Of a stretch of 35,090 nucleotides of DNA, positions 1,106 through 4,897 are shown one piece after another (the first letter of the stretch is position 1; the number at the start of each line of letters is the position of its first letter). A program made the position numbers and the translations under genes. The notes beneath the pieces were generated by a model. The model did no database searches, had not been told where the DNA came from, and was given only the letters and a program-made list of their open reading frames with translations. The stretch lies in contig DYPH01000002.1 in the NCBI GenBank assembly GCA_020720045.1, positions 1-35,090 on the forward strand, in the 5' to 3' direction. The DNA is from Sorangium cellulosum. GTDB taxonomy: Bacteria; Myxococcota_A; Polyangia; Polyangiales; Polyangiaceae.

Positions 1106-1765
1106 CTAGGAGGACCGAATCTCGTCACGCACCCCTTCGAGCTTTCCGTGGCGGAGAAGCTCTTCTGCGAGGCCCGCACGCCGGACGCGCTTTGCGCGCT
1201 CCGCATAGATGATTCCTTCGAGCTGGGCAAACGCATGTTCGAGCGCATCATTCACGATGACGTAGTCGAAGAGCGCGTAGTGCTCGATCTCCTTCTTGGA
1301 GGCGGCGAAGCGACGAAGAATCACATCTTCGGCGTCGGTTGCACGGCCGCGAAGGCGCCGTTTCAGCTCTTCCATCGAGGGGGGAAGGATAAAGATTCCG
1401 GTAACATCAGGGACCTTTGCGCGAATCTGTCGCGCGCCCTGGTAGTCGATATCAAAGATGATTCCGGTGCATTCCGGGTCTTCGGAAGATCGCGCAATCT
1501 CGCTGCGCGCCGTCCCGTAGAGGTTTCCGTGGACTTCGGCCCATTCGATGAACTGGTCTTCGGCGACCATCTCCAGGAACGTCGACCGGTTGACGAAATG
1601 GTAGTCGAAGCCGTCCTTCTCGGTCGATCGCGGCGCTCGGGTCGTGTGGGACACGGAGAAGCGAAGGCCTGGAAATCGCGCGAGAAGCTTGCGGGTGAGG
1701 GTCGTCTTCCCGGCACCGCTCGGCGACGAGAGAATGAGGAGGAGGAAATCCGAGCGGTTGACCAT
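1106..1765 (-). CDS. gmk: Guanylate kinase
   Basis: Phosphorylates GMP to GDP with ATP in the cytoplasm, an essential step in GTP synthesis. The protein has 219 aa, near the family norm of about 205. The P-loop SSPSGAGKT is at residues 13-21, followed by the GMP-binding segment with SVSHTTRAPR and GFDYHFV, and later by the IFDIDYQGARQI stretch typical of Gmk. It follows yicC in the same orientation (127 bp gap); yicC-gmk is a common bacterial gene order. Guanylate kinase is an established (p)ppGpp target in several bacteria, which makes the RelA/SpoT-like gene three genes upstream notable. All expected motifs are present. Confidence 0.97.
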   Translation of the reverse strand: MVNRSDFLLLILSSPSGAGKTTLTRKLLARFPGLRFSVSHTTRAPRSTEKDGFDYHFVNRSTFLEMVAEDQFIEWAEVHGNLYGTARSEIARSSEDPECTGIIFDIDYQGARQIRAKVPDVTGIFILPPSMEELKRRLRGRATDAEDVILRRFAASKKEIEHYALFDYVIVNDALEHAFAQLEGIIYAERAKRVRRAGLAEELLRHGKLEGVRDEIRSS

Positions 1766-1892
1766 AGTGCCCGAGGGGGCCGTTCGAGGTCATCGGCAAG
1801 CAAAAGCGCTGAACCCGATGCCGCAAGGAACGGTTGCCCGAAGTGGAGCCCGTCTACTCGATTTCCGGGTGAATCGGCGGCGAATTGGCGCG

Positions 1893-2783
1893 CTATTCTA
1901 GGTTTTGGACCTGTTCGCGAAGGCGCTCAATTTCGACCTTCATCGCAACCACGACGTGGGCGACGGTCGAGTCCTGGGCCTTGGACGCGGTCGTGTTCAC
2001 TTCGCGCGCGAATTCCTGGAGAAGAAAATCGAGGCGCTTCCCCTGGGGCTCTTTGTCGTTCGCGAGTGCTTCGTCGAACTGCTGAAGATGACTTGCGAAT
2101 CGGGTTAGTTCTTCCGCAACGTCCCCACGATCGGCCAGCAACGCCGCCTCCTGGACGATGCGGTCGCTTGGCACCACGACCCCAGTCCCGTCGAGGAGCT
2201 TCGCGATGCGCCCGCGGAGGCGATCGAAGTGCTCCGTGGCGAGCGCCGCGGTACGTTGCGCCAGGTCGGCGTGAAGCTTCGTGAGGAGGGCGAGGCGCTC
2301 CCGCAAATCTCGAACAAGATTCACGCCTTCGCGCACGCGCATCGCGTCGAGATCGGCCATCGCCCCTTCGAAGGCTCGCTCGGCAGCGGCGCAAAGTTCG
2401 GGGTCTTCTCGCTCGCCGGCATCGCTCGCGAAAAGGCCGGGGACCTGCAAGACAGCAACGAAGGGTAGGGGATCACCCGGCGCAAGCGCATCGCGAAGGG
2501 CCTGGAGGTCGGCCCAGGCCTTGGCTACCCGCTCGAGCGAAATCTTTGATTTCTCACCAGAAACGGCCGCATCGACCGCAAGAGAGACGTCAAAACGCCC
2601 TCGCCCGGTAGACGCAGCGGCGCGACCTTCGAGGAGAGGACCGAGGTCCGCGTAGCCCTTCGGTGGCCGGACGCGGACCTCGCGGTGCCGGTGATTTACC
2701 GTCCGAATTTCAACGCTTACGCGGGTACCGTCCGTCGTGGTCTGCGCAGCGGTCCCAAACCCGGTCATGCTCCGAAGCGGCAT
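1893..2783 (-). CDS. YicC/YloC family protein (putative endoribonuclease)
   Basis: 296-aa protein of the YicC family, whose members have been linked to RNA cleavage and stationary-phase physiology. The N-terminus MPLRSMTGFG matches the family's usual start, followed by VEIRTVNHR. The C-terminal DUF1732-type region contains GKRLDFLLQEFAREVNTT, then a final helix rich in charged residues. The ATG at 2783 is only 2 nt from the TGA of the upstream DUF507 gene, so the two are probably translationally coupled. The gene precedes gmk as in many bacteria. The family call is safe; the ribonuclease activity is inferred from relatives. Confidence 0.93.
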   Translation of the reverse strand: MPLRSMTGFGTAAQTTTDGTRVSVEIRTVNHRHREVRVRPPKGYADLGPLLEGRAAASTGRGRFDVSLAVDAAVSGEKSKISLERVAKAWADLQALRDALAPGDPLPFVAVLQVPGLFASDAGEREDPELCAAAERAFEGAMADLDAMRVREGVNLVRDLRERLALLTKLHADLAQRTAALATEHFDRLRGRIAKLLDGTGVVVPSDRIVQEAALLADRGDVAEELTRFASHLQQFDEALANDKEPQGKRLDFLLQEFAREVNTTASKAQDSTVAHVVVAMKVEIERLREQVQNLE

Positions 2784-2785
2784 CT

Positions 2786-3295
2786 TCAGCTTCCGCGGCG
2801 CTTGCGGAACTGCTCGGAAACGCGGGCGTATTCCACGTCCCAGAGCTGCGTACCTTCCTGGACGTGCTTCAGCTGGGCGCGGATCTCAAGTTCGACTTCA
2901 CTCGCGTCTGCCAGGTGCTTCTTAAAGACACGCGCCATCGCCCGCCGAAGCTCGACATCTTCAACAAAGATTTCGTCGACGCTCGGCGAGTTGTGGAACG
3001 TCATCACGATTTGATCGAGGACGTAATCAAGCGCCTCGTCACCGACCTTGATGCCGTGACTCTCCGCGATCTGCTCACGAACGCGACCGTACTGATCCAT
3101 GCCGCGACCGGTCTGCGCGAGGAGATCCTTCGCCTTTTCGTTGATCTTTCGCTCCTCGGTGAGGAAGGCGTTGAGCACCGCGACAATGTCTTTTTCGACC
3201 TCGCCCGGAGCATCGGTCTCGATGTCCCCCGCAGCGATGAGCGCCTTGACACATTCCTTCGAGATCGGCTGAACCTTCGCAGATTGGAGTCGCAC
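2786..3295 (-). CDS. DUF507 family protein
   Basis: Cytoplasmic protein of unknown function, 169 aa from the chosen start. The start is a GTG at 3295 (VRLQSAKVQPIS), because DUF507 proteins characteristically begin with a similar MRL...KV...I segment and an AAGGA ribosome-binding site lies 5 nt upstream. The open frame extends to 3346, but those 17 extra residues look non-coding. The protein holds two similar halves: 'GDIETDAPGEVEKDIVAVLN' (residues 22-41) and a later segment around 'VEDVELRRAMARVFKKHL', consistent with the two-copy form of the family. It is almost all helical. It sits between the RelA/SpoT-like gene (61 bp upstream) and yicC (2 bp downstream). Confidence 0.85.
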   Translation of the reverse strand: MRLQSAKVQPISKECVKALIAAGDIETDAPGEVEKDIVAVLNAFLTEERKINEKAKDLLAQTGRGMDQYGRVREQIAESHGIKVGDEALDYVLDQIVMTFHNSPSVDEIFVEDVELRRAMARVFKKHLADASEVELEIRAQLKHVQEGTQLWDVEYARVSEQFRKRRGS

Positions 3296-3356
3296 GACAA
3301 TCCTTCTTTCGTGGGGGAGTGGCTCCGAGCTGGCGGAAAGCAACACCCGTAATCAG

Positions 3357-4664
3357 TCAGCCTTCCGGGCTCGACGGCTTGGTTGCGGGGGATGCGTTTC
3401 CAGGGAACTCCGCGCCGTCTCCCGCTTCGCCGGCGGACGCGTCCATTGCAAACTGCGCGGCGTCCCCGGAAGAACGGACGGACGTGGCCGTGGAGGACCG
3501 AAGCGTCGGATTTGCAAGGGAAACCGCAGGAAACCCATCGGAGGGGCGCACTTCGGCGGGGGGCGGCGTCGCTTGCGAACTCGGCGCAACGCTCCCCGGC
3601 GTCCGCGGCGGCGAGTCGGGCCCGCTTTCCGACTGCTTTCCAAGCTGAAGCCGACGCATGACGGCCCGCTTCTGACGCTCTTTGTACTGGGCGTGAGACG
3701 CGTCCCCTTTTTCGTTGGTCGCTTCGGTCACGCGGTCGATGATCTGGAATTCGCACACGACGAACGTCACGGGTCCTAGGGACCAGGCCGCTGCGGGCGC
3801 CTTCTCAAGGACCGCGTGCGGAAGGCGCACCGGCATATCGACGACGAAGTGGATGATTCGGTAGCTCGCCGCCGAGAACACATTGTCGCTGGGCGTGAAG
3901 TCGAGATCCTTCCCCGCCTGCATTTTGGGAAGCATTTCGGCTAGATGAGGCACTGCTTCGCAGTGCTGCTTGAAGCCGAAGACCGAGTTGATGCTCTGCC
4001 CGGGGATGATGTAATTGAACGGAAAAAGCGTCTTCGTGAGATGTTCCATCACGGGGAACATGTCGTCTTCGCTCTCCGTCACGATCCGGAAACGCAGTTT
4101 GTCGTAGACCTGCGCGGCGATCGTTTCCTGCTTTGAAAGCAGCTTTGTATAGAGGCTATCCTTGTGCTTCCGACCACCGACAAACTCGACGATCGGATAG
4201 CCACCGACGAGCATTTCGCCAATGGTTCGATAGACTTTCGCCTCGACCAGGTGAAAGAGCTCCTGGTGGGAGAGCGGCAGCATGAACAGCAGCTCGCGCC
4301 CATCCAAGTGATGGATGATGTGCATGCACTTGAGGATGGTGCAGGCGCACGTCTGCCGGTGCCCCTTGCCGGAGGCGATGAGAAAGAGCTCCTCGACGGA
4401 GGCTTCTTCCACCGGGCGCGGAATCGAATACTCAAGATGGCGGCGGAGGAAAGCGATCGCCTCGGCCTTGATTGCGTCCATCCGTGCACGATCACTCGTG
4501 TTTTCCGGATCGAACGCATTCGCTACGAGGAACGCCCGAACTTCCGCAGGGTCGACGAAATTGAGGCGGTGCCAGTCGATGACCGAATCGCCGCGGAGGA
4601 GAATCCGCACCGCTTCCAAGTCGGTGACGGAGAAATCTTCGAGACGTTTCGGCGAATGGCGCAT
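3357..4664 (-). CDS. TIGR04552-type protein with RelA/SpoT-like nucleotidyltransferase motifs
   Basis: 435-aa protein that I recognise as the myxobacterial TIGR04552 type, without characterised function. In order it shows divergent versions of the (p)ppGpp synthetase motifs: GGRKHKDSLYTKL (163-175; synthetases have GR.K...S...K), YDKLRFRIV (187-195; compare DIAGIRIV with the Mg-binding Asp), SYRIIHFVV (267-275; compare GYRSYHLVV with the guanine-stacking Tyr), VVCEFQII (302-309; compare VEIQIRT with the catalytic Glu) and SHAQYKE (323-329; compare AHWRYK). An insert of about 50 residues separates the second and third motifs. No HD hydrolase or TGS/ACT domain is visible. The N-terminal 120 residues are helical with a Cys/His cluster (TCACTILKCMHIIHH, 105-119). 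The last 90 residues are low-complexity Pro/Ser/Ala. It starts the run leading to DUF507, yicC and gmk. Enzymatic activity is inference. Confidence 0.75.
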   Translation of the reverse strand: MRHSPKRLEDFSVTDLEAVRILLRGDSVIDWHRLNFVDPAEVRAFLVANAFDPENTSDRARMDAIKAEAIAFLRRHLEYSIPRPVEEASVEELFLIASGKGHRQTCACTILKCMHIIHHLDGRELLFMLPLSHQELFHLVEAKVYRTIGEMLVGGYPIVEFVGGRKHKDSLYTKLLSKQETIAAQVYDKLRFRIVTESEDDMFPVMEHLTKTLFPFNYIIPGQSINSVFGFKQHCEAVPHLAEMLPKMQAGKDLDFTPSDNVFSAASYRIIHFVVDMPVRLPHAVLEKAPAAAWSLGPVTFVVCEFQIIDRVTEATNEKGDASHAQYKERQKRAVMRRLQLGKQSESGPDSPPRTPGSVAPSSQATPPPAEVRPSDGFPAVSLANPTLRSSTATSVRSSGDAAQFAMDASAGEAGDGAEFPGNASPATKPSSPEG

Positions 4665-4705: not shown

Positions 4706-4897
4706 TCACGCCTGGTCGACCTGAACGACCGGCGACGTTGCCGGCAGTTTCGGCGCGGAAGAACGGCCGAGGTTGAGCGTACCGACGAAGATGCCGAGGG
4801 TCACGGCAAAAACCGCGACTTGACCGAAGAATGCGCCCGAATAGCCAGCGACGGCGAGGGGGGCGAGAGCGGCCAGGCACCAGGGGGTAATCTTCAT
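4706..4897 (-). CDS. Small membrane protein
   Basis: Predicted 63-aa protein starting at ATG 4897 (MKITPWCLAALAPLAVAGYS). Residues 5-45 are almost entirely hydrophobic and form one long or two short membrane segments, broken around SGAFFGQ. The tail (LGRSSAPKLPATSPVVQVDQ) is hydrophilic and Pro/Ser-rich. A GGAG sequence lies about 10 nt before the start. The same frame is open upstream to 5059, but that part is Arg/Pro-rich and looks non-coding. The gene ends 41 bp before the RelA/SpoT-like gene and may be the first gene of that cluster. I do not recognise a family. Confidence 0.55.
   Translation of the reverse strand: MKITPWCLAALAPLAVAGYSGAFFGQVAVFAVTLGIFVGTLNLGRSSAPKLPATSPVVQVDQA

Follow-up and report, generated by a model that had tools for sequence, protein, structure and literature searches.

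A TIGR04552-family protein of Sorangium cellulosum as a candidate second, Rel-independent alarmone synthetase of Myxococcota

Whether a protein family without a functional name contains an alarmone synthetase, and on which nucleotide such an enzyme would act, is the question raised by one gene in the window analysed here, a 35,090-nucleotide stretch of Sorangium cellulosum DNA (contig DYPH01000002.1 of assembly GCA_020720045.1). An earlier note on this DNA had taken five short motifs in the gene product for those of a very divergent RelA/SpoT-like synthetase, and this proposal is supported by the score against the Pfam RelA_SpoT model, by the predicted fold and by HHalign comparison. At a probability of roughly 60%, the protein is read here as a distant member of the RSH superfamily that serves as a Rel-independent second alarmone synthetase of Myxococcota, acting as a Mg-ATP 3'-pyrophosphokinase. 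The gene and its domain layout are:

3357..4664, reverse strand: TIGR04552-family gene, 435 aa, a divergent RelA/SpoT-type synthetase
4200..4664, reverse strand: N-terminal helical domain, residues 1–155, family-specific, with no PDB fold or HD-domain match
3645..4199, reverse strand: SYNTH (RelA_SpoT) domain, residues 156–340, from Pfam, VIA and HHalign
3357..3644, reverse strand: Pro/Ser-rich C-terminal tail, residues 341–435, outside the family profile

The product matched the NCBIfam model TIGR04552 with 343.7 bits (E 1e-102, cut-off 125) and the sister model TIGR04562 with 329.1 bits. The two models describe sister subfamilies, neither of which is functionally named; no function for the TIGR04552 family was found in the literature searched, and the RSH classification of 2011 (PMC3153485) mentions neither Myxococcus nor Bdellovibrio. 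The match to TIGR00691 (spoT_relA) was weak. Pfam PF04607 (RelA_SpoT) scored 31.8 bits, above its gathering score of 27, and was matched at E ≤ 1 by all 33 close relatives compared. The most distant family members score below the Pfam cut-off, and the link to RSH proteins may therefore be missing from the family name. At the sequence level the protein had no match in the PDB, whether the query was a single sequence or a profile. Alignment of the family profile by HHalign to the synthetase domains of Rel proteins from the same phylum gave P 8e-7 with TIGR04552 only and P 1.2e-9 with both subfamilies, and to short Rel-like synthetases P 3.8e-10. Because these values lie far below the controls (40 column shuffles reached P 0.0054 at best, the reversed profile 0.043), a chance likeness to Rel is excluded. 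The assignment of an RSH fold and active site to TIGR04552 and TIGR04562, families previously without a functional name, is made here.

An AlphaFold2 model of residues 1–345, built from 33 window and locus sequences, reached a mean pLDDT of 74.8 and a pTM of 0.76 and was weakest in the active-site loops, with residues 167–188 and 255–268 below pLDDT 50. Comparison of this model with the PDB by Foldseek and VIA, the check that had been put forward for the fold, identified the Rel synthetase fold. Foldseek ranked RelP, RelQ and Rel first with a probability of 1.00, at E-values of only ~2e-3. In the VIA search the 23 best entries were all RSH (p)ppGpp synthetases (Z 7.2–9.6), headed by RelSeq (24io, Z 9.6, rmsd 2.9 over 121 residues), Mtb Rel (9.5) and BsRelQ (9.4). 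The best unrelated fold was DNA polymerase X with a Z of 5.9, and CapRel reached 5.7–5.8.

The SYNTH fold, the ATP and Mg residues and the aromatic residue of the G-loop are shared with the long RSH proteins Rel, RelA and SpoT (TIGR00691, PF04607). Unlike these, the TIGR04552 protein has no ribosome-sensing C-terminal region, and HD, TGS and ACT regions were likewise absent (Pfam: no HD or TGS); it carries its own helical N-terminal domain. The synthetase-only architecture resembles RelP and RelQ (SAS2 and SAS1), from which the extra N-terminal domain in turn sets it apart. A helix with the pattern LKxMH..HH, reminiscent of LxKLADRLHN in Rel, prompted a comparison of the N-terminus with the Rel HD domain, and a remnant of this domain was rejected (HHalign P 0.17). 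When modelled alone, the N-terminal domain gave no convincing fold (best E of 1.1 in Foldseek, best Z of 4.4 in VIA). The N-terminus had been described as Cys/His-rich; a conserved C-x6-H-x3-H face does exist but is confined to one helix:

4308..4343, reverse strand: helix motif C108-x2-L-[KR]-x-M-H115-x3-H119, conserved in both subfamilies

The conservation of the face formed by C108, H115 and H119 would be compatible with a metal or redox site; the face has no known match.

The ATP and Mg side of the active site was compared with RelP of Staphylococcus aureus, in which R78 and R112 hold the adenine, K80, K88, R91 and S84 the phosphates and H190 the ribose, with Mg bound by D107 and E174 and Tyr151 critical for guanosine binding (PMC5794853). 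The motifs on this side are:

4143..4169, reverse strand: ATP-phosphate motif K166-x3-S170-x3-K174, roles from PMC5794853
4086..4103, reverse strand: predicted Mg-binding D188 and adenine-stacking R193 (D-x4-R), invariant, roles from PMC5794853
3675..3695, reverse strand: H324-x2-Y327-K328-x-R330 (HWxYK in Rel), 19 residues after E305

Eight of the ten published RelP positions are filled in register (K166, S170, K174, D188, R193, Y268, E305 and H324), with K166, S170 and K174 corresponding to Lys80, Ser84 and Lys88. At the positions of R78 and R91 the basic residues are shifted by one (R165 and K178). All five motifs first listed are present, but the first, GRxK, is out of register, since the Arg before K166 is off by one and is lost in TIGR04562. 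Conservation was assessed in 76 sequences, comprising 75 Myxococcota family members and one distant relative. K166, K174, D188, R193, E305, Q307, Y327 and K328 are invariant in all 76, S170 has one exception and H324 two, and the HxxYK motif is nearly invariant. The invariance of the ATP and Mg residues argues for an active pyrophosphokinase. The interval of 19 residues between E305 and H324 recurs in 30 of 30 Rel proteins, whereas both RelQ-like proteins compared have 16, so that the core resembles long Rel more than RelQ; the motif GxA[AS]HxxYK is likewise shared with long RSH proteins.

On the acceptor, or guanine, side the likeness to (p)ppGpp synthetases is only partial. The features on this side are:

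3987..4004, reverse strand: P221-G-Q-S-I-N226, aligned with IPG-RXKD of Rel, motif role as cited in PMC3153485
3885..3986, reverse strand: family-specific insert of about 34 residues (227–260), after the RXKD-like motif and ahead of the G-loop
3849..3863, reverse strand: G-loop Y268-R-x-x-H272 (YQSLH in Rel), position 272 being His, Asn or Gln across the family
3735..3752, reverse strand: E305-F-Q307-x-x-D310 (ExQIRT in Rel), with the catalytic Glu kept, Arg-Thr replaced and D310 invariant

The positions named for the Mg-binding Asp, the stacking Tyr and the catalytic Glu are filled and conserved, with D188 and E305 as given above and position 268 occupied by Tyr in 64 of the 76 sequences and by Phe in the other 12. 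The IPG that precedes the RXKD position in long RSH proteins is retained. Neither the RXKD or EXDD motif of long RSHs nor ExQIRT, however, is present in the protein: the first position reads PG[QE]SxN in TIGR04552 but, for the majority of TIGR04562 members, P[SGT]RSRN, and the second reads ExQxxD, confirming that the Arg-Thr is replaced. The insert, first put at 50 residues, is real but shorter, and its length varies among other family members. Given the changes from RXKD to [QE]SxN (RSRN in TIGR04562) and from ExQIRT to ExQxxD, the protein was not classed as a canonical long-RSH ppGpp synthetase, and with both guanine-side motifs altered the acceptor may be something other than GDP or GTP.

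It is accordingly possible, if doubtful, that the enzyme makes a product other than ppGpp or pppGpp. The guanine-side changes are conserved and family-specific, with D310 invariant; many members have Asn or Gln in place of H272, and the insert ahead of the G-loop is variable. Precedents exist among the toxSAS enzymes: tRNA is the acceptor for FaRel2, CapRel, PhRel and PhRel2, and (pp)pApp is the product of FaRel and Tas1 (PMC11559606). With FaRel2, CapRel and PhRel the TIGR04552 protein shares the fold, the ATP site and an acceptor site diverged from that of ppGpp makers. The structure nevertheless lies nearer to Rel and RelQ/RelP (Z 8–9.6) than to CapRel, the G-loop aromatic is retained, and TIGR04562 keeps an RXRN form of RXKD. 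A guanine nucleotide would most likely be the preferred acceptor.

The distribution of the family also sets it apart from toxSAS enzymes. Members of the family were found in 169 of 284 sampled Myxococcota genomes and in none of 14 control genomes. The TIGR04552 family is vertically inherited: pairwise distances of family and Rel proteins from the same genomes were correlated with a Mantel r of 0.91 for 16 TIGR04552 genomes and 0.96 for seven TIGR04562 genomes (p<0.001). No member was found on the plasmids searched. A defence system was considered and rejected, as PADLOC returned no defence-system match at the TIGR04552 locus. Phage origin was rejected as well, a scan of viral contigs having revealed no relative and the sole phage match being a record that resembles a bacterial contig. 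This record, Microcystis phage MaAM05 (MW495066.1, 117543–130607; locus L142), carries glyS, secF, secDF and mtgA beside a TIGR04562 gene and is seemingly mislabelled. Vertical inheritance and the lack of plasmid and PADLOC matches weigh against a toxSAS-like product. The source genome also encodes a complete Rel with an HDxxED motif (locus L034) and a RelQ-like synthetase (locus L035), making the TIGR04552 protein an additional enzyme. With no recognisable antitoxin, the family is not a typical toxSAS, being vertically inherited, absent from the plasmids searched, frequently unpaired and present alongside a normal Rel.

Three further observations concern related genes. The RelQ-like small alarmone synthetase of the source genome (898–2013 of L035, reverse strand) has 371 aa with an extra C-terminal region and a weak PADLOC match to PDC-S33. 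A TIGR04552 gene and a TIGR04562 gene occur together in one genome (G213, loci L080 and L081); the subfamilies are therefore able to coexist, and their roles may differ. Short Rel-like synthetases of one Myxococcota family (L135, L136, L137 and L138; open frames of 213–285 aa) have N-termini resembling signal peptides or membrane segments and are possible exported alarmone synthetases (compare PMC12691689).

The genes on either side of the TIGR04552 gene are:

4706..4897, reverse strand: unannotated small membrane protein gene, 63 aa, 41 nt upstream of the TIGR04552 gene
1106..3346, reverse strand: DUF507, yicC and gmk, downstream of the TIGR04552 gene, a linkage not conserved beyond the taxonomic family

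Clustering with gmk had been offered in support of an alarmone function. As the linkage is local, this argument is weak, and gmk was rejected as a functional partner because the linkage is lost outside the taxonomic family.

The pairing with the small gene is more widespread. Its product carries the motif G[NHQ]xxVLxxTxGIFxGTLxLGR. When 12,860 six-frame ORFs from the family loci were searched with a model of this product, 54 scored below E 0.01, and with a single exception these lie immediately ahead of the enzyme gene in the same orientation. An added set of 20 regions contained the gene in nine, always upstream and on the same strand. None of 59 whole genomes from the class has more than one copy, and in 24 of the 27 genomes with both genes it precedes the enzyme match, in the same orientation, by no more than 330 nt. 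Among 43 class genomes with the enzyme, 16 have no detectable small gene, two have it elsewhere and one has it in convergent orientation, and none was found beside the TIGR04562 members examined. Another 12 genomes have the small gene but lack the enzyme, with several copies close to a Ser/Thr kinase gene; it is thus a partner of the enzyme rather than an obligate part of it. These solitary copies would be odd for an antitoxin and count further against a product other than (p)ppGpp. The small proteins often contain a lipobox-like GC (examples also in L039, L049, L064, L072 and L080).

That the two proteins form a toxin–antitoxin pair or a membrane-tethered stress module, in which the small protein would inhibit the enzyme until the envelope is disturbed, is unlikely. 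The adjacency on one strand with the small gene first, in 24 of 27 genomes, and the specificity of the six-frame search suggest such a module, but the 16 genomes in which the enzyme stands alone, the displaced and convergent copies and the 12 genomes with only the small gene do not fit it. It is more improbable still that the protein is a pseudo-synthetase, a non-catalytic regulator that retains the fold to bind ATP or an alarmone. The displaced equivalents of R78 and R91 and the altered acceptor motifs would be consistent with lost activity; a dead enzyme, however, is expected to lose some catalytic residues, and D188, E305, both ATP lysines and R193 are invariant even in a 26%-identical relative. 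Coincidental motif matches in a protein unrelated to RSH synthetases, to which the sub-threshold Pfam scores of the most distant members might point, are scarcely credible when profile, fold and residue register agree.

For the preferred reading, a second alarmone synthetase, the following mechanism is proposed from the sequence and the model. Mg-ATP would be held by K166, S170, K174, D188, R193 and E305, and the nucleotide that stacks on the Tyr or Phe at position 268 would receive the pyrophosphate at its 3'-OH. The canonical Rel of the same genome would be the likely hydrolase of the product. The helical N-terminal domain probably controls the enzyme, as does, in relatives at the class level, the upstream small membrane protein, which would tie the enzyme to the cell envelope.

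In M. xanthus and Sorangium, rel/relA mutants make no ppGpp on starvation, which would mean that the TIGR04552 family is not the main starvation source of ppGpp. The single published observation found for the family comes from Bdellovibrio NC01, where a frameshift in a gene annotated 'TIGR04552 family' reached high frequency in one of six evolved lines (PMC9888234), so the gene can be lost there. Accumulation of (p)ppGpp has been described as necessary and sufficient for entry into M. xanthus development (PMC4880591); for this organism, RelA is the synthetase discussed as ribosome-linked (PMC12288465). A bolder and rather unlikely extension is that the second, vertically inherited pyrophosphokinase of most Myxococcota sampled, derived from the Rel synthetase core, produces some signal nucleotide different from (p)ppGpp and, in part of the phylum, is controlled by the co-encoded small membrane protein; an alarmone pathway linked to the membrane would then run alongside the stringent response. 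The small membrane protein, being conserved, provides a concrete handle on how the enzyme is regulated. Most Myxococcota sampled carry a previously unnamed second synthetase-type enzyme whose ATP site is intact and whose acceptor site is changed. If active, it would be a candidate source of alarmone in predatory, multicellular bacteria and may broaden the known chemistry of the RSH fold.
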